DNA from: Branchiostoma floridae
Lineage: Eukaryota > Chordata > Leptocardii > Amphioxiformes > Branchiostomatidae
Length of the DNA stretch: 64,000 nucleotides
Direction of reading: 5' to 3'
Assembly (NCBI RefSeq): GCF_000003815.2
Contig: NC_049979.1
Span: 22,198,285 to 22,262,284, forward strand
The notes beneath the pieces are model-generated. The model worked only from the letters and a program-made list of their open reading frames with translations. It ran no database searches and was not told where the DNA came from. Each line of letters begins with the position of its first letter. Within the stretch, counting starts at the first letter, position 1. Positions 26,121 to 59,097 of the stretch are shown piece after piece. Position numbers and translations under genes: made by a program.

Positions 26121-26402
26121 ATGGCCACGACCGCCGAGGGATGTAGCTCCACCGGCGACTCCAAACCGTCAACGACATCCCAATCCCTCGGACCAGGCAC
26201 GCCATGTTCGCCCTCCAACCTACCAGAGCAGGTGGGGCCTCTATCGGTACCTCGACCGAGCCAGTCGCAGGCGTCCCCGCCCGGGCTGGGCAGCACCATG
26301 ACCAAGCGAGCGGTCCCGCCCGTCGCCCTGATCCCCTGCCAGGTGTGCGGCGATGTGTCGGTGGGCTTCCACTGCGGGGCCTGCGTCTGTGAAGCTTGCA
26401 AG
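26121..26402 (+). CDS. 2DBD-NR: 2DBD-NR exon 1: N-terminus and first finger of DBD1
   Basis: It codes residues 1-94, [16 protein letters not shown] to CEACK. The finger is C73-x2-C76-x13-C90-x2-C93, with extra Cys at 85 and 88. ATG 26121 is preferred (GAGCCATGG context, after a likely acceptor at 26080). An in-frame ATG at 26004 would need 26004-26080 to be exonic. The donor AAG|GTGGGT is phase 0. Confidence 0.88.
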
Positions 26403-29400
26403 GTGGGTTCCGACTTTTACTGGTGCGATATCATGGCAAAGAGTACAACAGCTGTCAATTGTTTTACTTCATTTGAATTACAGAAGACAATAGCACAGGT
26501 GTATAGGTATTCATGAGCAACACATACAGGTGTATCATATAGTATGAGCTCCAAGTTCAATGGCCTTACGTTACACAAGGTGACGACTTTATTTTGTCAC
26601 TTATCGATACTTGTTTTGTATTGTGTGTGTTTACTAAAAATCATTAACAGTGTTAGATTCCTATTTACAAATTTTATGTGAATGGGGGGATGTTCATGCA
26701 AATATTCAGTAATTGCATATTTCCTGATAGGTACTTTTTGTATACCTGAACAAATCTTCATTTTGTTTTATAGTGATATGTGAAATGTGGATATTTCACA
26801 ATATATTTGCAATATATTTGTTTGTGCTAAATTTAAAGATGGTTGCAGATTACATGGAAGAAATTATGAATCATTGATTTCAATGTTCAGGAATTATGTT
26901 ACGCTTTGCAGAAAATGTTAATAATGTGCTGTAACTTATGTGTACAGATCACACTATACTTTAACCTATACATCTCACACTGTATAGGTTGCTAAAAGAG
27001 ATGAACTTTTTTTTGCTCTATAGTTTTGACCATTGATTTACTAACAGTGCCAAGTTTTTAAAATTTTGGTGGAAAACTATGTTACTTAATTCATTTATTT
27101 AGTTTCCTTCAAAGAAAAAAAATACACAAACGCACAAGATATTTTCATTTTTCCACATTTGGGTGAACCAACTTGGATAGCGTTTTCTTGCACTCACAGC
27201 AAATACACATAGCAGTATGTAGAAGCTTTAACTAGACAGTACTTACTTTGTAAGCACAAACCTTATAATAACTTCCAAGTTGAAGAGTTTTCCCCATATT
27301 TTTATCCTCATTCAACGTTCAACATTACTGTACGCACCCTTAACTGTCATAACGAAGATTTCATAAACGATACTCTGAGTTTAAAATATCCTGGATATAG
27401 AATTGGATGCAAGTCTTTCCGTAACTGCGTTAGCTTGACCTACTACTACTATTGTGATAAACTTCTATGTCCATGGTATATGTCGAAGCCTACTGTTGGA
27501 TAAAAGGCCATTTGTAACCAAGGAGGTTTCCTTGTTGTAACTATGTATGATTCCCTGTTTACAAAGCAACAAATACTAGTTCAAAGCATGCCCTCCTTAG
27601 CATATCTCACAATGCTACCTGCTGTGTATTTTTATGACCAACATGTATTGTTACTTAAGAACACCAAGATTGAAAAAAATCTTTTATACTATAGCTGGCT
27701 CATAATTCATGATATCGCACATAGTTTTCCATTGCATATGATTGTTTGTTACAATTTGTATCTAAGTTTACAGATGACACACTGAGTGTGTGAGAACTTG
27801 ATAGTGATTGTCGATAATGTCTGCTTCTATTGATGCCAAAAGTTAGTGTTTATATCAATTGAAAAGGAAACGCTTTTCTACGAGTAGTTAACTTGTGATG
27901 ACTGTTCAGTTACACCATGAAGAGGTTTCTATCTACATGTAACGTTACCTCTGAGGATTCCATTATAATAGATATAATGTTATCTCCCTTCAGTTGTTGA
28001 TCTACATTGTACACTGTAGCTATATAGAAGTTTCCTCTTCTTTTATCCTAGCCATTGGGAAAGTCATGAGGAGAGTCCTAAGAAAGTCTGTCAAGTAGCT
28101 TACAAAAAGCTTACTTTGGATGGCTGCCCCATATCAGTGCAAAAGCTACTTGTCATTTAATGCAACATATAAATGTATCTTCTGGGAATAGGAATTTACC
28201 CACTATTTTTACTCATGTTATTTTTCAAGAAAGAATATACTGTGCCTGGGCATGATAAAGTAATTCATGACAAACTCCCATTTTTGATTTTGATGTATAC
28301 TGTTTTTGTGTGCTCTGAGTTATCAAGTAACTGTTGGTTACATCTTAAATTTGATACTATCATCGGAATCATTTTAGAAATGCCTTCTTCACAATTGATT
28401 ATCTGAGTTGTACTTCTGGTCTATAGGTCTTCTGGAACTAGTTCTAGTAAGTTAAACCCTCATGCTATAGATCGCTTCATCTCAGTCATCTCTGTTATGG
28501 AACTCTTCAGAAGAGACATCACTGTAGAGAGATGTTTCATTCGATTTTACAGACTCAAATGTTTGGCAGCCAATACAAAGCTGAAAAGATAAAACAAAAA
28601 CAGACGTAGAACTGCATTTAAATCTCATATACAACTTACAAGAAATCATATCGTCTCCACTGCTATACTGAATAGATCTAGGTAAACCAGTGCACAGTTA
28701 CTGCATGGAGGCAGTCTACTCTCCAATGCACCCAAGCTGCCCTTTCTTTACATATTTACACAAATGGACTTTGGAATATTCCACATTGAAAGCTAATTTA
28801 GAAACTTAGTTACACTCGTGACTGACAGTATGGGGTGACTTTCTCACTCACTGTAACTTCTTAGTATTTTGTTATAGGAAATTAAACCAGACATGATCAT
28901 GATCTTACCACTCCCTAGTTACTACAAAGATATTGAATTTCAAAGATGTTATTTGGAAAGAAAAGTTTCTGTTTTATCTTTTCTTATCACGTGCAGAAAG
29001 AAAGAAAGCACTATGGAACAATGTTTTTGCATTGTGAGGTCTGTGTGTTTTCTGGCTCTGGGCTGTCTCCAGGATCTGTCCCTCTGTCTTGGGATGAAAA
29101 ATTAATTCTTAAAATTTCAACCCCATCCATCGAAAAAAATCTGAATTTCATGACATCTAATTGATGAAAGTGTATTTTTGTAAGCTTGAAATGACAGGTT
29201 TATCGGCGAAAATTAAAAACACGGGCTACCAAACAATGAGTGGAACGGAAAAGAATTTAAGCAGAAGATAGCCCTGCATTTTGTGCAAAAAGTGGCCGTT
29301 AAACCCAATGAGTTGTTGTTAAACACTGAACACCTGAAACACCTGAAGCTCTAAAGCTGTGTCTATCACCTGTATCTAATCTTCGGGATGAAGAGGTAAA

Positions 29401-32400
29401 AGAGTGGAAGATCAGGTATTAGGAATTGTTCAGCTAGACTGGTAGCCATTAAAATTGCTTGTGATTTGTATACTGCCAGAAATGTATACTACTCTTCTAC
29501 AATCCCAAACAGAAGAGATAAAAATGTGTCAAAAAGCCCACTATGTTGGAACAACTGTTGCTTTGAACATATCGGACAGAAAGTGGGTTATGGTATTTCT
29601 TTTATGGAGTGACAGAAAAAACACATATCTGTCTGAATGATGCAAAAAGGCACTGTAAGATTGAAGTTTTAGCTATCTGATTTGACACCAAACAACACCA
29701 AAGTCATTTGTTTGTCACAATTGTATTTGCTTCTTTCTTCTCCTGTTGACCATCAGGCACTTCTCTAGGTATCCCAGCCAAAAGATGTATGGCTAACAAA
29801 AAAAATGAAAGGCTGACATGTCTTGTGATCATGTTAAGTTAAAGGAGAAAATGTCTTTATACTTCAAACATTAATGTAGCAAGTCCTAAATGAGTTGCAC
29901 ATTGACTGTCTCAATATGAACATGAAGAAAAGAATTGGCATTTCCAGCACTTTGTGACCAAGAGGAGATATAAAACCATTGCAGGTGTAGTATGTTTCTT
30001 CTGCTCACATTGACAGCCTGTCAGTTTTTAGATAAGCAGGAAACATTGTAAACTTGTCCTGCATGCACTGATCATTTCTGAAAGGTAAGAACTCAGAGAA
30101 GGACATGTCTGTTGGTGAAAAGGAGTCTGTGGTTCAACTATCGCACTCTACACCTCTTTGTTTCTATAACTTATATATGACTGTCATTAGTGTAAGAAAC
30201 GTTGAACAGTGCCAGCAGCAGGGCTCTCTGCACCTTTAATTTTGGGGAAAGACAGCGTGACAGCTAAAAAGGTCCAGAGGGATGGATCCTGGAGACACCC
30301 CTGATCAGAAGTCAAGCCCTCATGCTCTCAACTGTATGAGGCTGTATATAAGTATGACCCAAGCATGGCGTCCTTCCACTACGAAGTTATAATCAATCAA
30401 TCTTGTATGTTTTGATGTTCTGCTGATGCTACATTGTAGTATAAGCCCTCCCATTGAAATGGCAAAGGATGTACGGATACGGCAAAGGATAACGGGTGAC
30501 ACTGCAGGAGATGGAAAATATCTGAGTGTGTATGGTATGCATTTCATTGAGAGGGATGTTTTTCAAGAAAGTAGGGTACTGGTATTTAACCCGCAGGTCA
30601 CACTGTATTTCCACATATCTGGTAGTTAGAAAATTCACTGTACTGGCATGAGATGTGACCTGGGGGCCAGACACGTTTCCATCCTCTGCAGCAAAAGTAG
30701 GACACGATGTCAGGTATGTCTGCCGCCATGTTGTGTGGGGCGGCCATGTTTCTTTTGTCACAAACGTCAGGATTGCTTGGAAACACGAAGGATTAAAAAA
30801 AGGAGTATAGATAGACCAACTTCAAGATATATATGTAGAAACTTTGTACCAGACACACACACCTAGGGTTTGTGAAACTATTAAGACTCTCAGTAATTGT
30901 AAAAACTTGCACTGCAACTTAGAGCTATAGCCATATTTCCACCTTACTGGGCAAGTATTAAAGTCTAAGTACTAGTAGTAGTAACCATCTCAACGTGAAA
31001 AGGTGGCATGCTAGGTTAGAATTTGCCGATGTACCAACTCTCTGGCTCACTACTTAATTAGAAACTACTGAATTTCACATAGGGAAAACATAATGATTGT
31101 TTTTCGATAATACATTCATTTGTATAGATACCAATCAAGTTGAAATGGGAGTTGACCTGTATGAGCAAACTATAGAAATCCAACATAAACCAGTTATGAT
31201 TTTCTCTGTTTGGTAATGGGGAGAATAGGAAAGTCTTGTATAGAATTTCAAAGGCTTGACTACACAGTTGTCACTGTAGGAGGGATATCTCCTGTCCTCC
31301 TATCATTCTCTATTCACTAATCTTACTGCCTGTTTGCAGTACAACAGGTTCGAAAATTTCTTTAAACATAAACACATGGTTTCTTGGTCATACTGCACCA
31401 CTGCACGGAAACTCGGCGCTCAGTACCAATAGCCCGGAGCAATCAAAATACAGATCCAAACTGAATAAGGGTCACAGCACCATGTTCAAGTCATACCCTG
31501 CCAAAAGAAAGTTATACCTATTGTGCTTTCAGACTTCAGGAAACTACATTTGATGGAAGTCCTCATGGTCTGACTGGACCAGGGAAGCCCCCAAAACTAC
31601 TTGTATCAAGCCAAGTCACAATATTGATACGTATTATACAGGCTAAGACTACAACGTCTAACAACCCTATTTATCAGACATTGCTCTATGCGGAGTGTCT
31701 AGATCTGTGTTAGAAAAGTAGGAAAGTCTTTCAATGGATTGTGATGTCACAAAGAAATACCGACTACTGTCTACCTGAAGCCTATATGAACAGGTTTGGT
31801 GCAGCAGTTTTTAAACCAGTTTATGGACATGAGATGCATAAAAAGTGTAACAAATTTTCAAGAACAGCTGTCTTTCCATTTCTTTTTCACTCAAACCTTC
31901 AGTCCAAGTAACCATAGCTTTGCTTATTTCCCAACTTAAAAGGCTTTTGTTTTGTCAGAAAAGGGAAGACTTTCAAGTCGTTTGCAAGATCAAAGTAGGA
32001 GTGAATCAAATCAAAAGAATAGTCTAATAGTAATCAAAAGGCGGTACATCTAAGTACTGTCTCACATCAGGTTGCGAGTTTGCCAGAATGAAATATTGAG
32101 AATACCTGTTTGGAAGAATGAAATGTTTAAATTGCCTGTTGACTAAATTAGTAAATGGAAAAGCAATTTTACAGCTCTTCCATTTTCTGTTACAATCAAA
32201 ACTCGGCCGTGAAATGTTTTGTTTAAAAAAAAAAGGCCTGTGAAGTTTATAAATATATTTCTCAGCAAAATTAACAATGAATCAGAAAGTCAGTCCAAGA
32301 ACACATATTTATGAGAAAGATGGGTAGCAAGTGTTGTAGCCAAATTGTGTTACAGTTGGGAACACACAGTATCAAGTTCAGGACAAAGCAACAAAGTGTT

Positions 32401-38400: not shown

Positions 38401-41400
38401 GAGCACTTGTAGTTGGCATGTGTGTGATGCGTCCTGAATAGGCGCTGGCCTATTCTACAGGTAATGATGCAGGGTTGTTTTGTGTGGCCTAGAAACAGAC
38501 AGCTGGTGGGGCAGTCTGCAGGATAAAATATGTACTGACCTCACAACCCCTCACAGCAGCGTGAACCCTCTGAGTAGCCTCTTCTTCTTGACATTCAGAG
38601 GAAGGTCTGGTTATATACCAGATTATCACAGCCTCACCACATCCTGGCCATACTTTGAATGTGGATTCGAAAAGGCTTGGTGCGTTAACCTAGCACCACA
38701 ACTGTTTTATTGTACATAGAAAAAGCGTTTCAAAGAAAATATGCTGGAATTCTCTCTACGTACATAGTACTCTTCTTATCTTAATGAAAAGCCCATTCCA
38801 GAGAAAAAGAACGTAGAGGACCATCACACCAATCAAGTCTATAGGCTTTATAGCTGTAGTTCCCAATAGGAGTCTCATTTACTGGTCCTTGTGTCCTAGT
38901 TCTGTAGGGTGGAGGGCATTAGTCAGTCTGTGAAGTGATTTATCTCATTGTCAGTACTTGGTTAGGCCTGTCCTCTTCCATCATCCTTTGTTCTGCAGCT
39001 GCTTATGAAAATGATTTGAAACCTTCTTCCTGAAACCAAGTAAAAAAATTGGGGTCAAAAATCATCCCATGTTGTTACTGCAGTCATAGATGGGGGACAT
39101 TGTTACTTGTACATCTTCGTCATGCAATTTCAACATATAAGTACTTGTTAGCAGGGCCAAATAATATATTTTATTCAGGTGCATTTTACTCAGCACCCAG
39201 TCACATTCTTCACCTGATCGTTGTACATTTGCAAACTCAGGAAAATCTAGGGATTTTGGGTGCTGTTGATTTGTTCTCGCACAGCACACTTCAAAATACT
39301 ATTACCAGAATGTCAAAATTGCATGACAAACTACACAAAATTAAGGTTTATTTTCCAAAGTATATAAGTATACAAATGTACAAGACTTGGTATATTTCTA
39401 CAGACAATGTATTATTTTGTATTGTACTGATTGCAAATTGATTATCAATGAGATTTTTTAACTAAAACTTTGCCAGAAGATAATATTGTGCTGAATGCAG
39501 AAAGACGAAGTTTCCATTTTGTCTGCTTGTATTTTGTACATTTAGAATGCTCATACACATATATTTCATCTCTGCCAAATGGTTCAAGGTATAAGTAGCA
39601 CTGTCCCCCACTATTTTAATAAGCTACATGTATGTAGCGTTCAATGAATAATGTAACATGTACATTGTGTACATGTTTAATCTTCTATCAACAAATTTAT
39701 TTTTCATCGAAACTTAAATTGGGTAAGTCCACTTATAACGTTAGATTTTAAAAAGAAGTCACTTGAAATTTTTCATATTTATGTGCTGTAAGATGGATTG
39801 AACCCAAATTTGTACATAAGTCGATAGCTTACTACTGTAATACTAGATATCATCTGTATTGTAAATAAGGCTTAAAGTACCAACCAAAAAACATAATAGA
39901 TTTAAAAAACTCAGTGTTGACCAATGACAGAAAGTTTATGAGACTGTGACAAGGTTGTTCGTCGGTTACTTATGTGTAAAGGAATGCTACATCTACTTCA
40001 ACCCTTTTATTAGAGGCCTATGGTGCAGCTTAAACACTATACAACTACTCTTTACTATTTATACTGGGTTTTTTTACAGGTCCTACATGTAGTCTTTTAG
40101 ACTATCTGTCAGAAACTGTTCCAAGGATTTTTGCACTTCAGGCCAATTAGTATGATTGCTCTTATGCATGGTCATTTTAGAGTTTGGGGGTTTCATCTCT
40201 GATACAGTCAAATCTCTACAACTAGTACAAGTGACCACCTCTGCATAAGGACCACCTGGCCAATGTGACCACTTGTTGGTTGTCCCCTAGATAAGTTTTC
40301 CCACAGACACAAGCAATAATCCTGTTTATAGTAACCACCTGTCCACATAAACCAGATTGTATTGGTCTTGAGTGGTCCTCTTGGACAGTTTCGACAGTGA
40401 AAATAGCAAGAATTATAAAAATTATGCAAACTGGTTCGTAGTCTAGTCTGTAATTCTGCAGAAGGAAATAGTAGTCTCAAATAACACTTAGAGAAAAGTC
40501 ACTACCAGTATTTTAGTTTTGGTATGATTTAACTTGAGTGGTCCTATTCCCGACCTATGGTCTACTCGAACGTACAGTTGTTTTGTAAAGGTGCACTTGA
40601 CACTAAGCCCTTGTGAGCTGAGCTTCACTCATGTACTATACATATAAACAAGATTGATTTAAAGCTTTACAGACACGAACATGAACATTTCAGTTTTCGG
40701 CAGGCCCAATGACATAATCTCTGCAAGCTCTTCTAGAAACAGCATTGCGCGTGTAGTTCGCGAAACCCATGGCCAGTTATTAGGGGCACCAGCCTTCTTA
40801 GAAGGTGTCAGGTCGTAGGTCAGCGGTCACACTCTGGCACTGAGAGAATTTTATTGGGCTGAGAGTCTGTCAACTTAGATGTTTTAATATATTGTCATTA
40901 GTTACTTCCAAGTTTTTGCAACATAAAAATGCCACTGGACTGATACAGATTATTTGATATGAGTAACAAATATCAAGGGAGGAAAAGTCATGTCATGTGA
41001 CCTATTTCCTTGCTTACCAGTCAGAACTCATTAACCTAGATTACAATTGACATTAACCAAGCTTTCCTTCTTCTTCTTCTATACCTGCAGAAATTCTTCA
41101 TCAGAAGTACCAAGGATGGCGGGGATCGAACCAAATTCAAGTGTAGCAAACAGCAGAAATGTGACATCACCAAGCAGACGCGGTCCCAGTGCCAGTATTG
41201 TCGCCTCCAAAAATGCCTGGCAGTGGGCATGGCTAGAAAAGGTAAGACTTAAGAAAATTTTCCACTAGACTGAGTTACTGTAAATCTTGAAACTTTCCCA
41301 GTGGTTCTATTTTCTGTTTTCGCAGTGACCTGTCCATTGTAAATTCATGAGACCACAAATTTGTCTCCCTTGTATGGCTACTGTCCTACAAAATTGTTCC

Positions 41401-44400
41401 AGCTGCGAATTTAAGTCCTTTTCCTTCCTATTGCAAAATAAAACTGCTGCGAAAGTTAAACAATTTACAGTTTTACAGTTGTGGTCTTGATCATGAGGTC
41501 TTGAAGTTCCAGTTCCTGAAAAATGTGTTCTTTGCTTCCAATCAATTATTCTAGTCAATTGAATTATGGAAAATTATAAGGTATTAGTATGATGTAAATG
41601 AAGGTTAATCATATGATATATAAAACCAAACTTATATTAGTGAATTTGATCTTGCTGCAGTGCTTATGCTGTGAATAGAATGTACAACAGTAACTAGTAT
41701 TCATGTCATTTGTATATTTTGTACATACCTGCTCAATTTTATGATTCCAAATATTTTGTTAGGATGAAAGAGAAGAATTTATATCCTGTGTATAAAATTG
41801 TGAAAATGTGTAGACTGAGACATCTAAATCTCAGTATTAACTTAAGACTGGCCATGCTGATAGAACTTCCAATTTACAGTAAAACTGCTCAAAAAGCCCA
41901 CTCAGGACTGATGAAACCTGGTTCATGTCGACAGGTGGTCACTGTAGACTAGATTCTACCAATGAGAAAAACTATATTGAAAGGTCCACCAAAAAGTGAT
42001 CACATTGGCCAGGTGGTGCTCAAGAAGTTGTGGATGAATCCTTGTGATAGTACTACTAGGAAAAACGTTGGGAAAATGAAAATCAAGTTTGATAATGGGC
42101 CACCTAGCGTAGATAGTTCTTAATATAAGGAACTGTAAGTGGTGTAGGTTTGGGACCCCAAGTATTTTTTTGGGGGATCTGCAGGGACCAATTTTTTGTC
42201 AAGCTTTGAAAGAGAATAAATCAAGAAGAGGTTGATGGATTGTCATGATCAAATAGCTTTCAACTTAGCCTTAGATTATTAATGTAGTGTTGATTATGAA
42301 AATCAGGAACAAGTTTGCATAATTATTTTTAAGGAGGAAAGTTTATATATATTCCCTGCATTCCATGATAGGACACTCAAACATGTCCGTAACTTAGAAA
42401 GAATGGATGCATTTATGCAAATGAGTTTTGTAGGGGAAATGAGAACGAGCATAATTTCATGGAAAATGTTGGGAAGAGAACATGATAGTCTAAGACAATT
42501 CATGCAAATGAGGACTTTATTTGCATAATCAGTAGAAAATATTTACAACACTTAAAAAGTTATCTATCATTTGACAAATCAATGGGGTATTGGAACTCTA
42601 GTTTTAAAATGTTAAATGTAAATTTGACATGTTTCACCTTAAAATGTATCTGTTTTATTTGTGTACACTGTATGTTGAAAGCAAACAGGTTGAAATTATT
42701 GGCAGCTTAATAATTTACTACAAATTTTTATGTGTGTCTATTCTATTTGGTTCGATTTTTTTGGGTAAAGTTACCGTCAGACAGGTTTCTTGCCATCCCT
42801 TTTCTCTCCTTCATAGGCCATCAGAAGCGTCATTAATTTATACTGTCTGGGCCATTATGTGTGCCCTACTTTGTTGCCCTAGATAAGTCACATCTATTGC
42901 AACCTAAATGGTGAAGCAAAAAATTGTGTCCCAATTTGCTTACTTTGGTACAGTTAGTCTGAATCTATCAGCATCAAGGAAAATCAATAGTTTCATCTCT
43001 GCTGCTGATGCGCCCTTCATTATTCCTTCATCCCTGTCACTGACAAGCTAGCCAGCCAGACAGGCTTATTTACATAAATTTCAGTCAATGGAATCTAGGT
43101 CATGGGATTTGTTTCTGCTGTGGGGATTTCTGGGTTGCCATGTTTGTCTAGCTCTTGCTGTACAGGCCACTTGGGTATTGACCCCCTTCAATCCTGTTTT
43201 GTGTGTGTGTGTGTCCGCAGGTGACCGTGCTTCCAGCAGCTCGCAGCCGCCGGTGACCAGAAGTCCCTGCAAAGTCTGTGGGGCGGAATCCTCGGGGTTC
43301 CACTTTGGGGTGGACACCTGTGAAGGATGCAAGGTACATAAACCACAAGACACAAGCCCCCCTCCCCACAACCACACACAATACTTAACACCAGCTCGCA
43401 TTACCTGTCCTACCCAAGACAATCATTAAAGCAGGGCTCAAAATTCACTTTTGGTAATGTGTGGCCCTGGTGCACCTTACCTATTAGTAAGAATTTAGGT
43501 GCAGAGAAAAAATTTGGGTGCACTACATGGACTTAAGTTAGCAAAATAAAATCTAATTGTTACAAACCTTACTGTTTAGAGCTTGAATCTGAAATTTTAT
43601 GGCTAACTTCAAATATTGAACAAGTAGTACAACAAATAAATATGCTGTATAGAAATGTACGATAGTGATCATACAAAAATATCCAAGTGCACTCACAGTG
43701 GAAAAGGTCCACAGCTCGAATTTGGGGTGTATTTCGAGCCCTGTTTTTAAAGTGTTGCATCAGACTGTCCAACCATAATAATTATCCCTAGCATCATGAG
43801 GCCAGTAAAGGAGAACCATCCACTTAGATACACTATTTATGACCAAACTTTCCTCAGATACATGTGCTAACAAAATTTGTTTTTTGGGAAGTTCAATTAT
43901 CTTATAGTTCCAGTTAGAAAATAGGAAATGAAAGTCCAAAACGTCTGTTGTAACCTATGTCCCTAGGGTAAACAAAAATATGGCTGAAATGTTTTAATGG
44001 TAATTGGGCTGTCTGTCTGCCCACCTGCAAGGACTGAAATATTGGCTACCTCATAGTCACAGCTTTGTGTACCTATATTTGTGTGAAGCTGCTGTTGTCT
44101 AGGATCAGCATAGTCTTGACTCCAACCACCAGACTTACGTTATTTAACGTTATTTAACGTTATTTAACATTATTTAAAAAGTTTGATGTTGACTATAAAA
44201 TTTTAGAAAAGCAGCAAGATAACTTCAAAAAGATAACATAAGACCATAGCCTTCCTAGTGAAAGTAGAGCATATTTGTCTTATTTATCTGTGCATACACT
44301 AAGATAAAATCCCCAGTATGAATATGTTTGTAAATACATCCTAACTGTTGACCTATCATACGATACATGCCCAAGCTGTTCAACTGTCCTAACCTTCATG

Positions 44401-47400: not shown

Positions 47401-50400
47401 TTTTGTACTTGAACCAGGTAATAATGTAGTGGTTACTGTACATTGTACATTTAGGCTGTTCAATAGTTACGACTCTGTTTGACAGTAGTTGCTTGTGCAG
47501 CTTTTACCATTTAATAAATACTTAACATGCTAGAAAAAATTGTGTTTCTTCAAAAGAATCATTTACAATGACATGACACACCTTCAGTCACCTACATGAC
47601 AAAACTATCATTATAGCAACATCCTAGAATACATTCTCAGTTATTAGTCTGGACACATCAGATGGGTATGTGAGCAGATTCACAATATCTGGGGGCAAGG
47701 ACCGCTAAGGAGAGCAGCCACAGCTATTAAGCAGAAGTGAAGTGTCATCGTCTGAGCCATTGCACATTTAACATTCAACAAAAACATTGCAAATGTCATT
47801 ACTAAGGAAAAGACTTACTTCTGTACTTTGTTCTGCAAATTTTTAGTTTTATTTTATTAAGATTGACTACATGGAACAAACTTGAATGCTGGTTGTGTTA
47901 TTGAATCTGACAGTTTGCCCCAGAAATACCTGACCCAAATGTTGCAGGATCTTACCATTCCACGTACACAGTCCATTAACAGGCTGAACGAGGCATAACT
48001 GCCCAAGATATATAGGCAAAGAAATGGTCAGCAAACTTACCTTTCCTTTCTAGGCCATTTTCTGGGTCACAGGTGGGATTTACAGATAAAGCAATAACCA
48101 TCATACCCTCTGGTTAGGCAACCTCAGCTATTTGTCATAGGATTTTCTTGGCATTTACTGCAATATGCTGTTATTGCATTTTGTTGCCTGTAATTTTTCA
48201 TCAGTCTTTGGTATAATTGTCGGATTAAACTCATCATGACAGAGACTGAATCATCAGCATAGTTCTGTGTATCTTGAAACTTTCACAGTTGTTTTACAGT
48301 TTTCACATTGACCGGTCTACTCTGAATCCATGGCACCGGGAATATGCCTCCCTTAGACTTAGTACATTTCCCTCCTATCACAAAATATAACCATTACAAA
48401 AGTTATTCAGTACATTCTTACACAACTGACACAACAAGTATGATATGACATCATAGGATTTATGATATGATATAGATAATGAATGTGACTCCCAAACTTT
48501 TGTTTTTTTGTGCAATTACATATTTTCTCATGTTACCTTATATAAAATGCAAACAAGATAGTATAGTATACAAAAATAATTATGGTGAATACTGAAGTAC
48601 ATAATTTACCTACTTGACTAAAATTTTATTCTGATTACTAGTATTCATGCCTTTTTGTGATTTGTTCTTCAGGGGTTTTTCCGGCGTAGCCAGCTGAAAA
48701 CGAAGAATGGAACGTATGAGTATGAATCCTACAGATGTAGCAAGTCCAAAGACTGTGCCATCAATGTGGTCACAAGAAACCTGTGTCGCTACTGTAGATA
48801 TGCAAAGTGTCTGGCAGTGGGAATGTCGAAGGAAGGTCAGTATTAACCTATAGTTAACAATATTATTCATACTCTTTATAACATCTCCTGTTAATGCTCA
48901 CTGTCATAATTTTGCAAACGAGATCAAACTACAATTGTTCTTGATTTGCAACTAACAACTAGACTCTACTGCACTACATTTTATTCTTGAGAAAAACAGC
49001 AGGTTTACAAGGGGTTAATGAATAGTTTTTGATTGTTGATAAATGTTTAAGTGTCTACGAATGACCATCCATCTGAGCATGTGCCTAATATGACGTTCTG
49101 ATCTGCGGGCATTGTCTACCAGTGAGGGACCCTGAATCAATAGTATTTCATCACCAAGGTATGGTGGAGTAAAATTGCATCAACCTAAATCGGGGTCAGA
49201 CAATTGGGGCCCTATGGAGGGTGATACTACTTGTTTTTATGGTGCTGCTGCCAAGTCTATATTGACAGTCACATATCCACACATTCACACACATGTACAC
49301 CTAGAAAAAACATGTTGGGCTTGACAACTTTGATTGTTAATGCCTCAACCCATACAGTCTATTACTAAACAGTACCTGTCAAGCTGAACTTTGGATTTTA
49401 AATGCTGATGAGAAAGTGTTGCTGATGAATCAGACATCAGTCCTTGTCAGAGTGACCTATGACCTATTGTGAAGGGGAAGCCATACTGATTGACACAGGC
49501 TGGTCCACATCGCTGATACTGAGCTGGCCTGACATTTGGCTGTATTAAAAACCTTTTCAGAGCGGAAGATGCCATGAGGGATGTATTCCGTATTCATTGC
49601 TGTCTTTAAAGAGTCTGGCAGTTGATCACAATGAGTCGTAACATTATCAGAACGGGAAATCTTTTGGCCTAAATGTTTTGAAGATTCATTGTACCATTCA
49701 GACCATGAAGAGTCGCAGCAACAAGTTTATTGCAAATTGGTTTCCAAAGCCTAATTGCAAGTTCTTAGAGTTGAGAAACATTTAGTATGTGATAGAAACA
49801 TACAGTACATGTAGGAAACAAAACTTGAGACAAGGACAGTGATTGACATTATTGTAACAAGAGGCAAATTCAAAAGCTTAATATGTTTCTAGACAAATTG
49901 GTTTTGGCTTCTGTTTTTTGTTGTTGTAGAGGAACAAAGGCAAGGTTTCCCCTTTTTGTAATAAATCACACATAGCATCCATAGTACCCAACAAGTCACC
50001 AAATGCCAAGATGAACATGAAAATTTGCCCACAAGAAGTAAACAAAGCTATGATGTGTCATGGTCTTCAGGCTGATCCCAAAACATGATCTTTCTTCATT
50101 CTGCTGATAGAAATACTGTCTCAGTACTGGGAAGTCAAGTCAGATAAAATTTATCGCACAGCTATAGCACCAGATACAGCGTAACTGGCAAAGTATGTAT
50201 GAGACTACTGACTAGTTGCATTGATTTAGTACAACCTACATGTAAATTGTGTCGCCTCCTCCACCTTGTCATGTAGTACAATCTACATGTAGACTTTAGA
50301 AGATAATGAAGGAGATGGGTCAAATTGACCCATGTTACATCAGTATTGTTGTCATGGTCATGAGCCATAACTGGGCAAAGACTCAGAAACACACCTGTAT

Positions 50401-53400
50401 CAGTGAGACTCAAAGTAGCCACCTATTGACTGATAAAAATTCCAAACCATGGTTCCAATTGTGATCCTATCCAGGCACTGTTGCCTCATACCTGCTTACA
50501 TGTACACACCATGATAATTTAACTGCAAACATCATATACATCTAGTCATGACATCAGGTTTTCCAATGATGAGATGTCTAAGTACTAGTGCTAACTTACC
50601 AATTCAATTCTGATGAGGCATAAAAATAATGCAATTAACAATGGACCTTAACGGTCTACCCTGCTCTACTGAGTGTGGTAAGCCCTGGTCAGGTCATGCC
50701 ATAAATCTTCATCTTGACCTTGCCAGCACATCATTAGCCTGGAGTTCTGTACCGCTGATCGGTCGTGCTGATAAAAGTGGACAAATCAGGACAAGCCACA
50801 CATACACATGCCCAGCGGTCAACTGTACAGGGTACAGTTTGGCTTTCATTCTGTGCACAATGTTACATGTATGCTCTTCCGCTTTACTATACTTTACTCT
50901 AGTGTTTAGAGTCATGATATAGGAAAGATACCATTTTGTGGATTTGTAACATACATCTTTATTTGCCTATCCACAGGTATCAGAATGGGTCGCCAACCCA
51001 ACTACCTCAAACATGGGGTGCTGCAACAGCTCCAGTCACCCTCATCTGAAGGAAATGGACACAGCTTTCCGACCTCCCCACCCATTCCTACTTCCCCCAA
51101 CATTCCTACCTCCCCAGGGGTGCCCATGTCTCCCAGCATCCCCATCTCGCCGACGTCGTCTACGCACCACTCTCAGCAGCAGCCGTCCCCGGTAGGCAAC
51201 TCCTACTCAAACTCCTACTCACAGGTTTGTTCACATCACCAGTCAACTGCCATTTGGCATAACATACCATTTTTTTTACGATAGGTACAAGCTTATAGAA
51301 CCAGACTGTAAGGTTTCATCCACTCTAACACTCTTTTCAATAAGTGTGGTCCCTTTGGGATCTTTAAAGTACTCAAGGTGTGGGTCTACTCAAACGTGGG
51401 TCTCCGGCTTTAAGTCTCATTAGAGAGGTGTGTAATAGGCCAGTTAATGTGTTATGCTGGATGGCAGTGATAACGGCTATATACATGTAACGCTGGTTCA
51501 CCTTTATCCGAGGGTAACCTATATTCGGTTTTTGTAAGAAAAACACATTTAGGGATATGAAGTTGGCGGACGGTGGTTTCAAATCGGAACATTTTGAAAA
51601 TACTGCAAATTTGAAACCACTGTCAGCAGACTTAATACTCCTAAATGTGCTGTTTTTAAAGACAACGGATAAAGGTCACCCCACGGATAAAGGTGAACTA
51701 GCGTTAGATATAGACACAGCTGTCCCTAACAAAAGCTAGGTACTCATTTTCACCTGAGTGAAATGGAGAAATAGGTCTAAAGTGACTTTCCCAAGTCATT
51801 ACTAGTCATGTAACATTGGGGTTTGCTATGGGATAGATTCTGATTCAACAACCCTAACCACAAGACAACCTCTCCAAGGTAATCACATTAAATCTTTTGG
51901 TAGCATAGCATCTTCAAGCTGTTGATGTTCAGGTTTGATGTATTACACAGAACGTGTTAGTTTGGGCAAGGACGTTCAACCTCCTTGGTTTGGGTTGATT
52001 CTGTAGAAAAAAAGATGGGTACAGAGAACTGGGTTAACACCAAACCATATCTCTGATGTTAACCATGTACATACATTTGTACCAGCACAAAATGTGATCA
52101 CCTTGACTGAATCAAAAAGGTGTAGATGAAATATACATAGCTGTGGTATTTTTATTGTTGTTTGCCATTGTCCAGAACCCAAGCATTACATAGTATCCTC
52201 TTCTTTTTCTCAGGTGTCATCTTGGGGAGATACCCAGTCAACCCACTCCAGCATGCAATCTCTACCTAGCCCCCACAAGTCCTACCCCCTCAGCCCCCCT
52301 CCCGCCACAGTCCACATGACGCACACAGACATGAGCTACTCTTCTCCCAATGCGGCTGCGACTGTAGCTTACAGTAATGTGAATTCCTTGGCACAACTTC
52401 TCCCAACGTCGCCTACTTCTCCCAACATGGGTCCCATTCCAACGTCACACTTTTCTCCCATGCACAGCATGCCGACTTCCCCCTCCCCTCTCATGCACCA
52501 AAGTCCCCTGCAGATGCACCCCTCCCCATCTACCACAAGCCAGCTCATCAGCGCAACCTACCCCGGCCCTGGCCAACAGATGCAGACAGGGAACATGGCC
52601 AGTCCAATCCCCTACCCCCCAGTGGAGCACTTCATCCCCTACGGCCCAGCCTCAGGTGTGCCCCCTACCAATGGGGGGCCTGTGGACATCGCAGAGTTCT
52701 TGCCAGTGGAAGATGCCTTCAAGTATCTCAATGCTGTTAGGGAACTGGTGGGTATCTCTACTTACTTTTACTACGATGACCGTAACTTGGCATACCACTG
52801 TACAAAGGCTTTGTTTTCAGTGTGCCAGTTTGTTATGTTCTTGTGTGTCTGTAGCATTTTAATGCACCATCATCAGAGTGGCAGGAAGTGATTGGGAAAA
52901 TTGTGTCAGTGAAAAGTTCAAGAGTGACAGGAAGTATCAGATCAGGCAGGTCAATGGAAGAGGCTTGTAGGAGGAATTGTTTTTGGTCTGTCGGGTTTTT
53001 GTAGCTACAGCTACAACTGTATAATATATATTTTTCATGTTCACAGTAGCGTGACAGGAAGTAATCAATGGCATAATTCACATAATGAAGGAAATGCAAT
53101 CAAGCGAGACGTTTGAAAAACTGTAGCTATTTCACAGGGGCTACCGTTGAACTCTTGTTGGTCCATAGTTGACGCTGAAGGGACCTTGATCTTTAAGATA
53201 CAAGTGCAGTATTGTGCATTCTACATTGTAAATTATGTCATCACCAAAAGGTGTTGTAATCAAAAGAACATACACGTACCTCCTCCAATTCAGGTTCAAA
53301 CAATGTACCTAGTGACAGTATTAAAGGCTACAAAATACATGTACATGTACATCTTTAGGCAAGTATGTCAGAGATGTCCAAAAATGATAAAGCCCAAAAG

Positions 53401-56400
53401 GTGTCTGCTTTTAAATTATCTCTCCTTTTTGTTGGTCACAAAGAAGCTGTTGAGAATTTTTACAGCTCTAAAAACTGCACCAAAATTCTGCACCAGTTGA
53501 GATAATAGCATTTCCACCTTTGTGGTGCTATGGTATAGTAGGGTAATTAAGGTACATTAGAGCCATGGCTATTCCACTGATCTACCAATACTTCAGAGCC
53601 TAGCACGGTAACCAGTTGTGATGACACATAGCTCATGATGGCCTTGGCCTGACAGTTGCAAACCCCAGGGTCAATAGATTCCAGGACAGAGCCTGACATC
53701 CATGTCCGGACATTTCTGGGTGGGGAAACTCGAACACCTAGCACTGCAATCTGGTTGATGTGCCTTCCATCTCATGCACAGTTCCGTGAGTTTTTGTGCT
53801 AAATTTGTTTGCCTTGATATAAACAATAAACCAACATATTGATTCACATGTGAGGACCATGCAAGTAAAATACTGAGAAATGTGTTGTAAACTGAAAAGT
53901 GGATCAGCTAGGTCTTACCTGTTAGAAAATTTTCTGTTGTTATTGGGGGACCTGCACGGGGGAGGGGGGGAGTTGATGCAACATCGAATGCTCTATGAAA
54001 AATTCCGAAAGACAGCAGCTGGCACAGACACAAACTACGCAGATTGCACAGATTATGCTCCACTTGAAATTTGAACAAGCTAGCTATGGATATTTGGAAT
54101 TAAAACTTGCTGATTATGCTCTACATGTTATAAGGCATGTAGGCCCCTTAATTCAAATCAATTCAGAACTTCAGCGTTTAACATAATCGTAACACTACAT
54201 TATGAAATTGGTATGTGCCTTCTTTATTACCTAAACATACAATGTATTAGCGGTACAATTGTTGACAAAAGGAAGTCATTAGTTTGAATACACAAAAATG
54301 ATGGACTGACAGTGTATAGGAAGTATATCTACATTATTTGTCGTACATTGAGCAGGTAAAGGTTAAAGGTTAGAAGCTTCATGTTGAAATGTTACAGGTT
54401 GTTCAACCAGTTCCAACAGATGGTGTCCCGTGCCCTTTTGCTCCTCCAGAGATCCCCTGATTTTGATTTTTTTTTTATCTTAATGCAAAATATATTTTTA
54501 GAAAAATACTTAAAATCTTGGTGACCTTGTTTGCTGACTTGAATGTTTTTTTTTTTACTATTCTTGTCATTTATAAAGCCAAAATAATCTCCACATAAAG
54601 CTCTTGAATGTACATGCGACAGGTATTGATTTAAGATCCATTAGGCTTTCGGCTGTGGTGAACATAGAAAGAAAACATGTACATGATACAATTGTAGAAA
54701 ATAAGATATTAACTATGATGTGTATACAGTGTGTGATAGGTTTTAATGTTGTAATGTCCGTTTGAAAAACAAAATGCCCAACCCGCCTTTTTTAACGGTA
54801 GGTTGTTAAATGCACTCAGTATTATCCTGCCATTGTTGTGTCTGGATTGGAAGGTCTGGTTGTCTGACCACTCCTGTATGTTGACATGACCTAGATTTTA
54901 CAATGGCTGCATGACAGCGTTAACTAGCAGGCTTTTTTGTCAGGAAGGAAATCTGTAAAAAAATATTCACGGTTCTGAAACAGAAGGGCAAGTCATGGAA
55001 TCCAACAGGTTTTCAAACAAGTGAATGATTATTTAAATGTTGTTGTTGTTTTTCTTCAAAATTTTTACAAAGTCCAAAGGTTGGAGGGTGTGGCACATCA
55101 GTGGATGTTGTCTGAAGAATAGGTCAGGTGGCCTAGAAAGAAATGTCATGGGTTGTCCTTCTTTTCTCACTTTCATCTTGTGGGATGACTGACGGTTGTC
55201 GCTCACTTAACTTTCATCTCAAGAACTTCGACTATTCCCAGCTGTCAGTGTAACTGGGTTACTCCTTGTCTCACACTACATCGGGGCTATTTATAAACCA
55301 GACACACAGTTCAGACTGTTGTTTGCTGACCAGGACTGTCTGTTATGTAAGGTTACAGGTAACAAAGGTGTGAACACGATACTTCTGGTCACACTGGGGC
55401 TGTCCTGAATCCCTCAATTCACACAGGTGTCCTTTTTTAGTCTGAAACATGTATAACATACAGATACAGCCATTAGGTCCGCACATCATCCCTGCAGGGG
55501 TGATAAATAACATTTGTTGAGGCCACAATAAGGTTTTGTAGGGACGGAATCAAACACGACCTCCCTTAGATAAACCTCAGACTGGACCTTGTACAAGCAC
55601 AAGACTTGTAGTGAGGCCATTGAATGACTTGGCAAATTGCTTTAAAATGCCTTCTATGTTTGCTTGTACTTCAATATTGTATAGTTTGAGAATAAATGAG
55701 TCAACTAAGAGAAGCACTGTAGCATTCGTGGCTACAAGTACTCACATTATATCAATAAGTAGTAGATGGCTTGTAAGATTTTCTGTTTGACAAACATTTC
55801 TAAAGGAACAAAAATTAGATGATGATAGGAAAATGTTACAGTATCCTCTTTAGCTTCACTACTCACAAACAACAACAACAATGCATTGCCTGTAGAATAA
55901 ATTCCTGCTGTCAAACATGCACATTTTAAGCATCAGACATCAGATAGTACCGGCAATAAATTTTGACAACTGTAGTAAGCTTTTACGAAGAGCACCAGTT
56001 CAACAGGAGATACCTTCAAGAAATATTTAGAGTTAATCATATGTTTTGTTTGATTGATTGCAGTTCATTTATTATGTAAAAATGGTTTTAAATAATACAT
56101 GTATGACCTGTCACTAAATGGTGAATGTGACTTGCATACGGAAAGTATAAAACTGCAAAAACACAGACATGCAGACCAAAAACAATACCTTCCTGTGAAT
56201 CAGTAGCCTCTTCCATTGACCCCATGTGCTGGAATGTCTGCCTTATGTGATGCATGACTAGTTCTACCAGCTCTGAGCTTAACCAGAACTGAGCTTAACC
56301 ACTCCCCACAAGTCTGACCATTGTGGTGACACCATCTTCCCACTCACTTCTTGCCACTCTACTGACAGTGCATAAAAAAAAGCTATGAAAATGGAAGAAC

Positions 56401-59097
56401 ACAAACATTCAGACACACCAAGAACAAAGCCTCTGTACACAGAGGCAAAATTGATCATATCATCTGGGTAAAATGTGTGAGCAACATGTCATGTATACAG
56501 TATTTGACATTACTGTATTCACCAGTTTTGACATCTTTATTTTCCTGCTCTATTCCTCAGCCTGAAGGAGGCAGGAATCTGGCCGAGCATGAACTGACAG
56601 TGGAGAACATCTGGGAGAAGATGATGCTGTCCTTCAAGAGAAACGTTCATGTCACCACCAAGTTTGCCAAGAAGATTCCAGGTACATTCTTCTCATCTCT
56701 GGCATTGGGGTTCATGAAAAAAGGAGGAGAGTCTGCATATATTTGTGTCCTTGTAATATTACCAAGCAAGAAACCCAACCATCTCAGCAATGTGATGATT
56801 AAACTGTGTAATGTACTGTACTGTACATGTTGAAATGTTTGCAGTGGTTTTATTTTAACAAAGGGTAGTGATGAAGACACTATACTGCAAATGTACCTTT
56901 CTAGTATATCACTACTCTACCACAGAATTTTTTCAACCAAGAATTTATAACCTTTCCCCTTCTACCTGGAAAATAGAAAATAGACAAATAAAATGTACAC
57001 AGTATGTGACAGATGTTTGTTTTGTCCCCTGTAGGATTCCGTACTTGCTCCATCGATGACCAGATCAGCATGATCCAAGGAGCGGCCTTCCCCATCAACT
57101 CCTGCATCCTGGCCCTGGACTACAACCCTGTCACCAACGAGATGAACTACTTCAACATGACGGAGATGGAGAGGACCGCCATGCCGCGACTTTTCCCGCC
57201 TTTCGCACAACTGCCCGTGAAGCTGCCCGACATCTGGAAGAAGATCCTTGCCCTGAGAATGAACAAGGCTGAGATGACGCTGTTCTGTGGCATCCTTCTT
57301 ATGTCCCCAGGTATGGCATGATGCAGGGTATGTTTGTATTGTGAACCATGTCAATCAGTCCTACACATCTGTGCATAACTGTCCTTGTGAAGCCCTGCAT
57401 AACATGCGTATCTGTTCTCCTCGTGGGTAGTATCAATACACCCATATCTGCTGCAGGATATGGAGCAGACAACAGTATATTTTTTAAGGTTGTGGATCAA
57501 ATAAAATAAACAGCACAAGAAACATTACCTCACTTATTCCCTTTCATGCATATAAAGGTACATGATTTGTATCATAAAAACAAAACAATTGCAGCACACT
57601 TATGTACCTTAATGTACTCGGGTCAGAGATTCAGTCCCTATAAACTGTGGTCTGTTGGAATCTTGATCTAAATAGGGTCTGTATGTAGGGTCCTAGCAGT
57701 TTGATGGCAAATTTTGAAGAGCCAATTTTTGTATGTTTTGTCCTGGACATGCTATAGTCTTGATGTTTTGCTGGCAGAGTAAAGAAGCAGTGTAGGCTAA
57801 CCCCTCCTGGCAACCTGCCCTGGAACTGCAGGCATACTGTTGTCAAAGAGTATCAAGGAAGATAACAGAACATAGGAATGGCAGATATTTGTCTGTCACA
57901 CAAGATATCACACAATCATAGTTAAGTAGCAAAAGAATCAGACAACTTGACAAATCCTCTAAAGAGTTGGATGTGTTGAATAGCATCCACTATCAATAAA
58001 TGTCACAATAAGAAATCATGGTTATTAAGATGACATGTAGCTGAAAAAGAATTGAAAATGTCGAGGGACTCATCTGACTGTTCATGACAATTTACCCATT
58101 TGTTTTGCAGACACTGCAGGCCTAAAGGACCCCAAAGGTGTTGAGATGTTACAAGGAAAATTGTACTCAATCTTGGAAAAGTATACTCTAGGTAAGTGAC
58201 ATGAAATTGACTACATTGTGTACATGTAAGATGTGTACCCGTGCAATGGGCTAGTCAGTAGAGTGTTCATCCTGCATTCGAAAGGTCAAGAGACGGGGGC
58301 CGCCATAGGCATCATCCATGCATGGTGTAGAAGGACGTTTCAAAACTAGCTTTATGGGTACATTCAGGGCTGTAAATTATCTCTAGGAGTATGATTTTAC
58401 CTCTTGAATAAAGATATTTTTTACATTTTTCACACTTGACAGGACGTTTTTTTGTTGTTCTTTGCCACATACTGTAAATGCAGAAATGTTCGCGGTGGAT
58501 TAATGTTCGCGGATTTCGCGGCGGCCGCTTCACCGCGAATTTAAAACCACCGCGAACATTTTTTCATAACAGTAAGAGACTACAGTGCATGGTGCTACCG
58601 CGAAATTAAATCCACCGCGAAAAGTCCATTTTCCCTCTACCGCGAAATTAAATCCCCGCGAACTTAAATGCATTTACAGTATGACATTGAGTGTTATTTG
58701 GCACATATCACATGGTATGTTCTTTGCTGCATATGACATGGTGTGTTCTTTGCTGCATGTGACATGGTGTGTTCTTTGCTGCATGTGACATGATGTGTTC
58801 TTTGCTGCATGTGACATGGTGTGTTCTTTGCTGCATGTGACATGATGTGTTCTTTGCTGCATGTGACATGGTGTGTTCTTTGCTAGGTTTGATGTGACAT
58901 GGTGTGTTGCTGGTTTCCCCACAGCTCAGGGAGTGATAGGTGGAGTGAGTGGGGTAGTACGCTTCCAAGCCATGCTGCAGGCCATAATGGCTCTCAAGAA
59001 GTTGAACGAGGAGCACGCTGAGAGGACCAGGCAGATCACCAAGGTCATGCCCTTCCTCAAGATTCCACAACTCTTCAGTGAACTCCACAAGGTGTAG
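26121..59097 (+). CDS. 2DBD-NR: nuclear receptor with two DNA-binding domains (2DBD-NR), 10 coding exons
   Basis: A ligand-type transcription factor with two tandem C4 zinc-finger DBDs. Coding exons 26121-26402, 41091-41241, 43221-43333, 48673-48835, 50977-51224, 52214-52747, 56561-56681, 57035-57310, 58111-58191 and 58925-59097 join in frame to 713 codons. DBD1 (C73 to about 144) has P-box CEACKKFF; DBD2 (C161 to about 236) has P-box CEGCKGFF. This CEACKK plus CEGCKG pairing is the reported hallmark of 2DBD nuclear receptors. DBD2 is followed by an NR1-like extension (GIRMGRQP). The hinge (about 237-475) is rich in S, P, M, H and Q. The LBD follows, with the family signature FAKKIPGF..C..DDQ (532-547) and a candidate AF-2 helix LFSELH (706-711). 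Partners and ligand are unknown. Orthology to a named human receptor is not expected; the family is absent from vertebrates as far as I know. Confidence 0.94.
27512..27541. repeat. micro-palindrome with 7-bp flanking direct repeats (copy C, shortened)
   Basis: The 16-bp core CAAGGAGGTTTCCTTG (27519-27534) has lost part of the right arm. It is still flanked by TTGTAAC on both sides (27512-27518 and 27535-27541). Confidence 0.82.
34340..34640. repeat. interspersed element, GAGCTTGAAT...GGTGCACTA family
   Basis: It shares ordered blocks (AATTGCAAACCT, GAGCTTGAATTTG, GCTAACTTCAATA, AGGTGCACTACT) with the MITE at 43432-43743 and with 15278-15325. Confidence 0.5.
37502..37614. repeat. foldback element with 9-bp direct repeats
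   Basis: AGCCTGG.TACCAGACCCC at 37512-37530 pairs with GGGGTCTGGTACCCAGGCT at 37586-37604, and AAATATCTAT pairs with ATAGATATTT in the middle. GAAAGGAAG stands on both sides (37502-37510 and 37606-37614), which fits a target-site duplication. Confidence 0.82.
40203..40400. repeat. GTGGTCAC-family dispersed repeat
   Basis: It begins ACAGTCAAATCTCT and contains GGCCAATGTGACCACTTG, the reverse complement of the block seen at 41995-42015; it ends GAGTGGTCCTCTTGGACAG. Confidence 0.55.
41091..41241 (+). CDS. 2DBD-NR: 2DBD-NR exon 2: second finger of DBD1
   Basis: It codes residues 95-144, [20 protein letters not shown] through [17 protein letters not shown]. The finger is C112-x5-C118-x9-C128-x2-C131. 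Together with exon 1 it gives the P-box CEACKKFF. It ends one base into codon 145 (donor AAAG|GTAAGA). Confidence 0.97.
41276..41471. repeat. MITE, best copy of the ACTGTAAATCTTG family
   Basis: The left end ACTGTAAATCTTGAAACTTTC pairs with the right end GAAAGTTAAACAATTTACAGT, giving imperfect inverted ends. It lies 35 bases after the exon 2 donor. Confidence 0.72.
41876..42025. repeat. GTGGTCAC-family dispersed repeat
   Basis: ACAGTAAAACTGCTCAAAAA, GACAGGTGGTCACTGTAGAC and AGTGATCACATTGGCCAGGT occur in the same order as in 8866-9030. Confidence 0.6.
43221..43333 (+). CDS. 2DBD-NR: 2DBD-NR exon 3: linker and first finger of DBD2
   Basis: It codes residues 145-182: linker [16 protein letters not shown], then [20 protein letters not shown] and CK. 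The finger is C161-x2-C164-x13-C178-x2-C181. Enters in phase 1 and leaves in phase 0 at CEGCK|G, the same residue and phase as the DBD1 break. A (GT)n run lies in the acceptor tract. Confidence 0.96.
43432..43743. repeat. MITE with CAGGGCTC inverted ends
   Basis: The left end CAGGGCTCAAAATTC is matched by the right end ATTTCGAGCCCTG (imperfect inverted repeat). It lies 98 bases downstream of exon 3. The interior shares blocks with 34340-34640. Confidence 0.72.
44138..44176. repeat. short tandem repeat, CGTTATTTAA x about 4
   Basis: Three exact 10-bp units and one with CATTATTTAA. Confidence 0.85.
48264..48405. repeat. diverged MITE copy of the 41276 family
   Basis: TATCTTGAAACTTTCACAGT, TTTTCACATTGACCGGTCTA and TACATTTCCCTCCTATCACA follow the order in 41276-41471. 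Confidence 0.6.
48673..48835 (+). CDS. 2DBD-NR: 2DBD-NR exon 4: second finger of DBD2
   Basis: It codes residues 183-236, [20 protein letters not shown] then RCSKSKDC and [19 protein letters not shown]. The finger is C204-x5-C210-x9-C220-x2-C223. P-box CEGCKGFF is NR1-like. Phase 0 start and phase 1 end repeat those of exon 2. Confidence 0.97.
48836..50976. other. 2DBD-NR intron 4
   Basis: A 2.1-kb intron. I see only short AT-rich stretches and no supported element or exon. Confidence 0.6.
50977..51224 (+). CDS. 2DBD-NR: 2DBD-NR exon 5: DBD2 extension and SP-repeat hinge
   Basis: It codes residues 237-319. [14 protein letters not shown] is the C-terminal extension that contacts the minor groove in NR1-type receptors. 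Residues 267-296 (51066-51155) are five tandem hexapeptides of form hydrophobic-P-x-S-P-x ([30 protein letters not shown]), each a possible proline-directed phosphosite. The end is Gln/Ser/Tyr-rich. Confidence 0.93.
51488..51706. repeat. MITE with TAACGCT.GTTCACCTTTATCCG ends
   Basis: TAACGCTGGTTCACC at 51488 and GGTGAACTAGCGTTA ending 51706 are inverted copies with one mismatch. Inner ACATTTAGG / CCTAAATGT and GGTTTCAAAT / ATTTGAAACC blocks also pair. It is in intron 5. Confidence 0.85.
51960..51994. repeat. micro-palindrome with 7-bp flanking direct repeats (copy D)
   Basis: A 21-bp unit at 51967-51987 (left arm CAAGGACGTT with one change, right arm AACCTCCTTG) is flanked by GTTTGGG on both sides (51960-51966 and 51988-51994). 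Confidence 0.85.
52214..52747 (+). CDS. 2DBD-NR: 2DBD-NR exon 6: long low-complexity hinge
   Basis: It codes residues 320-497, [20 protein letters not shown] onward, dominated by S, P, M, H, Q and T with many SP and TSP motifs. The end, [22 protein letters not shown], is likely helical and leads into the LBD. The donor CTG|GTGGGT is phase 0, and the frame stays open 144 bases into the intron. Disordered, possibly a transactivation or regulatory region (inference). Confidence 0.9.
52748..56560. other. 2DBD-NR intron 6 (3.8 kb)
   Basis: AT-rich intron with no exon. ORFs in this stretch are short and unsupported. Confidence 0.6.
56561..56681 (+). CDS. 2DBD-NR: 2DBD-NR exon 7: LBD start
   Basis: It codes residues 498-537, [20 protein letters not shown] to TTKFAKKIP. 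The helix 3 end KFAKKIPG opens the LBD signature. It leaves in phase 1. Confidence 0.93.
57035..57310 (+). CDS. 2DBD-NR: 2DBD-NR exon 8: LBD core
   Basis: It codes residues 538-629, [20 protein letters not shown] onward. The F..C...DDQI.M...A motif completes the LBD signature (helices 3-5). Later [20 protein letters not shown] matches the helix 7-8 region, where L.L...E...F is typical. Confidence 0.95.
58111..58191 (+). CDS. 2DBD-NR: 2DBD-NR exon 9: LBD helix 8-9 region
   Basis: It codes residues 630-656, [20 protein letters not shown] then ILEKYTL. The SPD..GL.D...VE.LQ..L...L..Y pattern is a standard LBD feature. Phase 1 on both sides. Confidence 0.94.
58233..58300 (+). repeat. weak tRNA-like SINE fragment
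   Basis: GGGCTAGTCAGTAGAGTGTT and CATTCGAAAGGTCA resemble the D-arm and anticodon-side part of a tRNA-derived SINE head; the B box is poor. Confidence 0.3.
58468..58683. repeat. MITE with perfect 15-bp inverted ends, CpG-rich inside
   Basis: CATACTGTAAATGCA at 58468-58482 is the exact reverse complement of 58669-58683. The interior is rich in TTCGCGG / CCGCGAA and itself folds. TA at both ends fits a TA target. It is in intron 9 of the receptor. Confidence 0.88.
58703..58913. repeat. 26-bp tandem repeat, 7 units, next to the last acceptor
   Basis: TTCTTTGCT recurs at 58720, 58746, 58772, 58798, 58824, 58850 and 58876, exactly 26 bases apart. Later units alternate CATGGTGTG and CATGATGTG, which hints at a 52-bp doubled unit. 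The array stops about 11 bases before the acceptor of exon 10. Confidence 0.95.
58925..59097 (+). CDS. 2DBD-NR: 2DBD-NR exon 10: LBD C-terminus and stop
   Basis: It codes residues 657-713, [20 protein letters not shown] to [15 protein letters not shown], then TAG at 59095-59097. The helix 10-like stretch [16 protein letters not shown] is followed by LFSELH, which fits the AF-2 core pattern (hydrophobic pair, x, Glu, hydrophobic) with a polar last position. Confidence 0.95.

Follow-up and report, generated by a model that had tools for sequence, protein, structure and literature searches.

The forward strand of the Branchiostoma floridae DNA analysed here, a window of 64,000 nucleotides, carries between positions 26121 and 59097 a complete amphioxus gene for a nuclear receptor that has two DNA-binding domains (DBDs) instead of one. 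The gene is confirmed by a model built on the genomic sequence, in which ten exons (Table 1) splice to a protein of 713 residues without an internal stop across a span of 32,977 bases. GT and AG border nine of the nine introns and the phases match at all nine junctions, so that the joining of ten exons without a frame break, proposed in an earlier sequence-only reading of this DNA, stands. Exon 9 was located by a scan for open AG..GT segments, and the start ATG lies in the context GAGCCATGG.

Table 1. Exons of the two-DBD receptor gene, in positions of the window
Feature	Position	Strand	Content
Exon 1	26121..26402	+	Start codon, A/B region and first zinc finger of DBD1 to CEACK; ends in phase 0
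Exon 2	41091..41241	+	Remainder of DBD1 (from KFFIRS) and first residues of the linker
Exon 3	43221..43333	+	Remaining residues of the linker (19 in all); DBD2, first zinc finger to CEGCK; ends in phase 0
Exon 4	48673..48835	+	Remainder of DBD2 (GFFRRS...CLAVGMSKE)
Exon 5	50977..51224	+	C-terminal extension with G-box RMGRQP and NYLKH; start of the Pro/Ser-rich hinge
Exon 6	52214..52747	+	Pro/Ser-rich hinge to the start of the LBD
Exon 7	56561..56681	+	LBD; signature begins (FAKKIPG)
Exon 8	57035..57310	+	LBD; remainder of the signature onward
Exon 9	58111..58191	+	LBD, helix 8 region
Exon 10	58925..59097	+	C-terminus of the LBD, AF-2-like LFSEL, stop TAG

The domain structure of the joined protein is evident both from Pfam, which finds zf-C4 twice (E 1.3e-45) and Hormone_recep, the ligand-binding domain (LBD), once, at residues 516-691 (E 4.6e-12), and from the spacing of its cysteines. 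The protein has two copies each of the zinc-finger spacings C-X2-C-X13-C-X2-C and C-X5-C-X9-C-X2-C, at residues 73-93 and 112-131 in DBD1 and at residues 161-181 and 204-223 in DBD2. These results bear out the earlier claim of two complete C4/C4 DBDs with a single LBD, and the two P-boxes are present in the order then given, CEACKK in DBD1 (residue 90) and CEGCKG in DBD2 (residue 178). The spacer between the fingers is 18 residues long in DBD1 and 22 in DBD2, compared with 15 in an amphioxus RAR-like domain (counted by eye); a combined finger pattern matched DBD1 only, because its spacer limit was 20 and the DBD2 spacer exceeds it. Between the domains lies a linker of 19 residues, with the GM of DBD1 and the initial Cys of DBD2 taken as its limits, a delimitation from which published boundaries may differ slightly. 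DBD2 is followed by the five-residue pre-grip SKEGI, the G-box RMGRQP and the motif NYLKH, which places a His fifth after the G-box; no G-box was seen behind DBD1.

The LBD passes the Pfam cut-off. Its signature, in helices 3-5, comes close to the published consensus but has C in place of L/V/I at one position and M in place of L/V at another; the strict pattern gave no match. The AF-2 reads LFSELH and thus ends in His where the published core, two hydrophobic residues, x, E (Q or R in group A) and a final hydrophobic residue, has a hydrophobic one. Among solved structures, the best match of DBD1 is ROR-gamma (E 1.1e-19) and that of DBD2 is RAR-alpha (E 3.7e-24), with 88 distinct sequences matched in each case, and the LBD is closest to RAR-alpha (E 1.6e-14; 442 matched), followed by Rev-erb-alpha (1.9e-14). 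The alignment of the LBD with RAR-alpha begins at helix 3, runs almost to the end and retains the Lys of FAK; read by eye, it also retains the AF-2 Glu at the end of the chain and has Ile at the position of the retinoid-binding Arg.

With its order of A/B region, DBD1, DBD2, hinge and LBD, the gene is almost certainly the amphioxus 2DBD-NRA, and most likely Bf2DBD-NRA of B. floridae. A 2DBD gene in amphioxus has been in print since 2023: one 2DBD-NRA gene is listed for each of B. floridae (Bf2DBD-NRA, XM_035818392), B. belcheri (Bb2DBD-NRA, XM_019778353) and B. lanceolatum (Bl2DBD-NRA, CAH1264236) (Wu and LoVerde 2023, PMC10497141). The features given there for group A are an EACKK-EGCKG module, 17-22 residues between the DBDs, a five-residue pre-grip, the G-box RXGRQ(P/S) and a His fifth after the G-box. 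The P-P module, the linker length, the pre-grip, the G-box and the following His are all found in the gene described here, together with the hallmark of 2DBD receptors, tandem complete C4/C4 DBDs with one LBD. It is like the published amphioxus 2DBD-NRA in its host, P-P module, linker, G-box with His and single copy per genome, and no difference emerged from this comparison of published features (PMC10497141).

Other members of the family are more distant. The echinoderm 2DBD-NRB is likewise a deuterostome receptor with two DBDs, but its P-P module is EACKS-EGCKG and it forms a separate group in the published tree (Wu and LoVerde 2023, PMC10497141). Schistosoma mansoni has three genes, Sm2DBD-alpha, -beta and -gamma (Wu et al. 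2007, PMC1810520), against one in amphioxus, as compared by description. Eg2DBD-alpha of Echinococcus granulosus (PMC6844482) shares the two DBDs, the EACKK first P-box and a structure of ten exons and nine introns, the exons being compared by number only, whereas it comprises 830 residues in 10,868 bases against 713 residues in 32,977 bases here. The flatworms, molluscs and crustaceans that the sequence-only reading had named as earlier hosts agree with the 2007 study of Wu et al. (PMC1810520), in which flatworms, Daphnia and a limpet were found to have 2DBD genes; Daphnia is not named in the main text of the later paper (PMC10497141). The same reading had dated the family to before the protostome-deuterostome split, a conclusion already published with the addition that at least two 2DBD genes were present in the urbilaterian (Wu and LoVerde 2023, PMC10497141). 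The loss in vertebrates that this reading also proposed would rest on vertebrate databases, which yielded no 2DBD gene when searched in 2007 (PMC1810520), and on the 2023 list, which contains no vertebrate (PMC10497141). The statement of the 2007 paper that the sea urchin has no 2DBD gene (PMC1810520) was overturned by the 2023 paper (PMC10497141). For functional studies of two-DBD receptors the amphioxus gene is of moderate interest.

Given long introns, of which the 14.7-kb intron 1 behind exon 1 is an example, one might ask whether a pair of adjacent receptor genes, or a collapse in the assembly, has been taken for one gene. We consider this extremely improbable, as phase is kept at every one of the nine junctions and the junction of exons 2 and 3 yields a linker of a length inside the published range. 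Intron 2, which separates the DBD1 and DBD2 parts, is just 1979 bases long, and none of its five longest forward-strand open frames matches an LBD (they gave two unrelated sub-threshold hits). The gene is also free of N runs, the sole run in the window being at 15348-15447, outside the gene, and the same architecture has been published from three Branchiostoma species (Wu and LoVerde 2023, PMC10497141).

The two DBDs of this single gene are identical to each other at 40 of 74 aligned positions. They were compared with other domains of the same genome whose names (ROR-like L055, Rev-erb-like L043, RAR and so on) we assigned by motif and take as presumptive. The best pairwise score for both DBDs is with the ROR-like domain, but by identity the Rev-erb-like domain exceeds it for both (38/71 against 35/71 for DBD1; 43/72 against 42/71 for DBD2), as does the RAR-like domain (43/71) for DBD2. 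In a tree of DBD1, DBD2 and 21 DBDs of the same genome (71 columns), 4 of the 20 inner branches are well supported; DBD1 sits on a long branch, and the nearest row by path to each of DBD1 and DBD2 is ROR, without good support. Sixteen of the 21 rows were joined by hand from two exons, with junction residues guessed in L047, L052, L053 and L057, and domains with a missing or unclear finger were dropped (L006 with its larger copy L059, L042, L044, L045, L046, L054, L058 and L060), as were the near-copies L038 and L039. The tree speaks neither for nor against a grouping of the two DBDs (p-AU 0.484) and therefore does not separate the duplication of one domain from the fusion of two receptors. In the published analysis, first and second DBDs form separate groups, both beside subfamily I (Wu et al. 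2007, PMC1810520).

The placement of the ROR-like domain at the top by score, of the Rev-erb-like domain as the closer of the two by identity, and of ROR as the poorly supported nearest row by path, in each case for both DBDs, would suit a conventional subfamily I receptor of amphioxus (ROR/Rev-erb type) to which a further finger domain had been added by accident, in this genome alone. Such an origin is scarcely credible when the genome holds separate ROR-like and Rev-erb-like domains (L055 and L043) and when the G-box, the length of the pre-grip, the His and the linker of the gene all fit 2DBD-NRA. Moreover, the P-box CEACKK is reported to be unique to 2DBD receptors (Wu et al. 2007, PMC1810520).

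An intron cuts both DBDs of this receptor at the same codon and in phase 0, between CEACK and K in DBD1 and between CEGCK and G in DBD2, and consequently exons 2 and 3 together constitute a cassette that can be removed in frame. The cassette measures 264 bases; the form that skips it is an uninterrupted frame of 625 residues, with one hybrid DBD and the P-box CEACKG in the predicted product, and skipping of exon 2 alone or of exon 3 alone breaks the frame. It is conceivable, if unlikely, that this symmetric cassette was the origin of the two-DBD form and switches it to this day, the omission of exons 2 and 3 giving a normal single-DBD receptor with P-box CEACKG. If so, one amphioxus gene would supply two receptors with different DNA sites. 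The intron state at that codon was visible in 20 of 24 other receptor loci, with a phase 0 intron in 6, a phase 1 intron (donor one base on) in 8 and no intron in 6; this survey took in 24 of the 27 listed loci, with phases read from sequence and the one-exon domains L001-L005 excluded. As the same intron position occurs elsewhere in the family, the position is old and not special to this gene.

The same-codon phase 0 cuts, the 264-base cassette and the uninterrupted 625-residue frame could also be taken to mean that the locus mostly yields a single-DBD receptor, by joint skipping of exons 2 and 3, after which CEACK runs on into GFFRR without a shift of frame. Cassettes that preserve the frame are not unusual in themselves, however, since exons 6, 8 and 9 are multiples of three as well, and every zinc-binding Cys is kept in both DBDs, as would be expected of two maintained domains. 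In print, too, the amphioxus records count as two-DBD proteins (Wu and LoVerde 2023, PMC10497141), and we regard a predominantly single-DBD output as very unlikely compared with a receptor that carries both domains. The words intron, exon, splic and isoform are absent from the main text of that paper (PMC10497141), and a search of the literature on single- versus two-DBD splicing found no paper, a search too narrow to call the cassette unreported.

The number of such genes was approached through searches of the amphioxus genome itself. A DBD1-DBD2 query gave at least 50 matches. Exons of the gene in the window account for five of these (at 91, 93, 96 and 100%, and exon 5 at 65%), the remaining 45 having an identity of 70% or less; a family search with E up to 1 found at least 62 zf-C4 pieces. 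No other first finger that the pattern caught ends in CEACKK, CEACKS or CLPCKS, as a second 2DBD gene might; the catch did not extend to L054/L031 and L058/L025, whose first fingers were not visible (L058 holds 697 N). Over the fingers covered, this agrees with the published count of one 2DBD gene per amphioxus genome (Wu and LoVerde 2023, PMC10497141). The only other CEACK among the caught first fingers is found in CEACKAFFKRT, at L053, of which L019 and L026 are further readings.

The same searches brought to light a cluster at C4:21591680-21637291, where five receptor finger pairs of one type, presumably NR1H-like from their motifs, lie on one strand within 46 kb. LBD pieces were found in two of the four gaps of this cluster, one above and one below the cut-off; silence in the other gaps means little, the genome-wide LBD search having missed the LBD exons of the window's own gene. 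The five finger pairs may represent five separate genes, and the agreement with one 2DBD gene per genome is limited by this cluster as well.

How the two-DBD receptor might act can be inferred from its motifs and from published relatives. DBD2, with its P-box EGCKG and G-box RMGRQP, would be the domain chiefly in contact with a half-site of the AGGTCA type and the sequence 5' of it, and DBD1, with P-box EACKK, might make a second, different DNA contact or stabilise the complex. A model of Eg2DBD-alpha pointed to DNA reading by only one DBD, with the other perhaps stabilising (PMC6844482). Gel-shift assays with S. mansoni DBDs on AGGTCA repeats showed no binding (Wu et al. 2007, PMC1810520), which leaves the DNA site unproven. 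The LBD would pair with a second copy of itself rather than with RXR; among the relatives, Sm2DBD-alpha was reported to form homodimers and no RXR heterodimers (PMC1810520), and for Eg2DBD-alpha1 an LBD homodimer and no RXR heterodimer are stated (PMC10497141). The AF-2 helix would recruit coactivators, probably under the control of a hydrophobic ligand.

The surroundings of the gene offer some further observations. Upstream of the first ATG the frame remains open for 54 codons (25959-26120) and contains no other in-frame ATG, and at the far end a 26-base tandem repeat (58656-58915) fills the end of intron 9 directly before the acceptor of exon 10. Seven neighbouring open reading frames, picked by eye from 24 of at least 90 aa, gave no Pfam match above the cut-off (CFEM and ClpS appeared below it), so no neighbouring gene is named, and ARAGORN found no tRNA gene in the window. 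A plasmid search with exon 4 returned no match; this search and a scan for bacterial promoters and terminators are uninformative on this gene.

Elsewhere in the genome, a fluorescent-protein query, presumably engineered from an amphioxus fluorescent protein, gave 68 exon-sized matches with up to 88% identity over one exon. These matches, like the boundary repeats described below, speak for an amphioxus host. The exons cluster at C4:24.57-24.65 Mb and C17:14.83-14.93 Mb and also on C14 and C3, and some of the matches have an internal stop.

Finally, several receptor loci carry tandem copies of an exon boundary. At L048 (C156:687500-690500, minus strand), which we take to be an EcR-like receptor, copies of the intron's 3' end and of the beginning of the second-finger exon recur every 116 bases and give four acceptor-like sites, only the last copy being complete; two copies of the end of the first-finger exon are also present, 52 bases apart. 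The same exon boundary is repeated three to four times at L042 (C18:8595570-8597794, minus strand) and L058 (C148:434500-444400, minus strand), in steps of 164-185 and 142-154 bases, respectively. Three receptor loci repeated at the same second-finger boundary exceed our informal expectation. 'Mirage' intron-exon repeats have been described in the amphioxus Adh3 and globin genes (PMC3087553), and the tandem boundary copies at L048, with those of the same kind at L058 and L042, fit this type of repeat.
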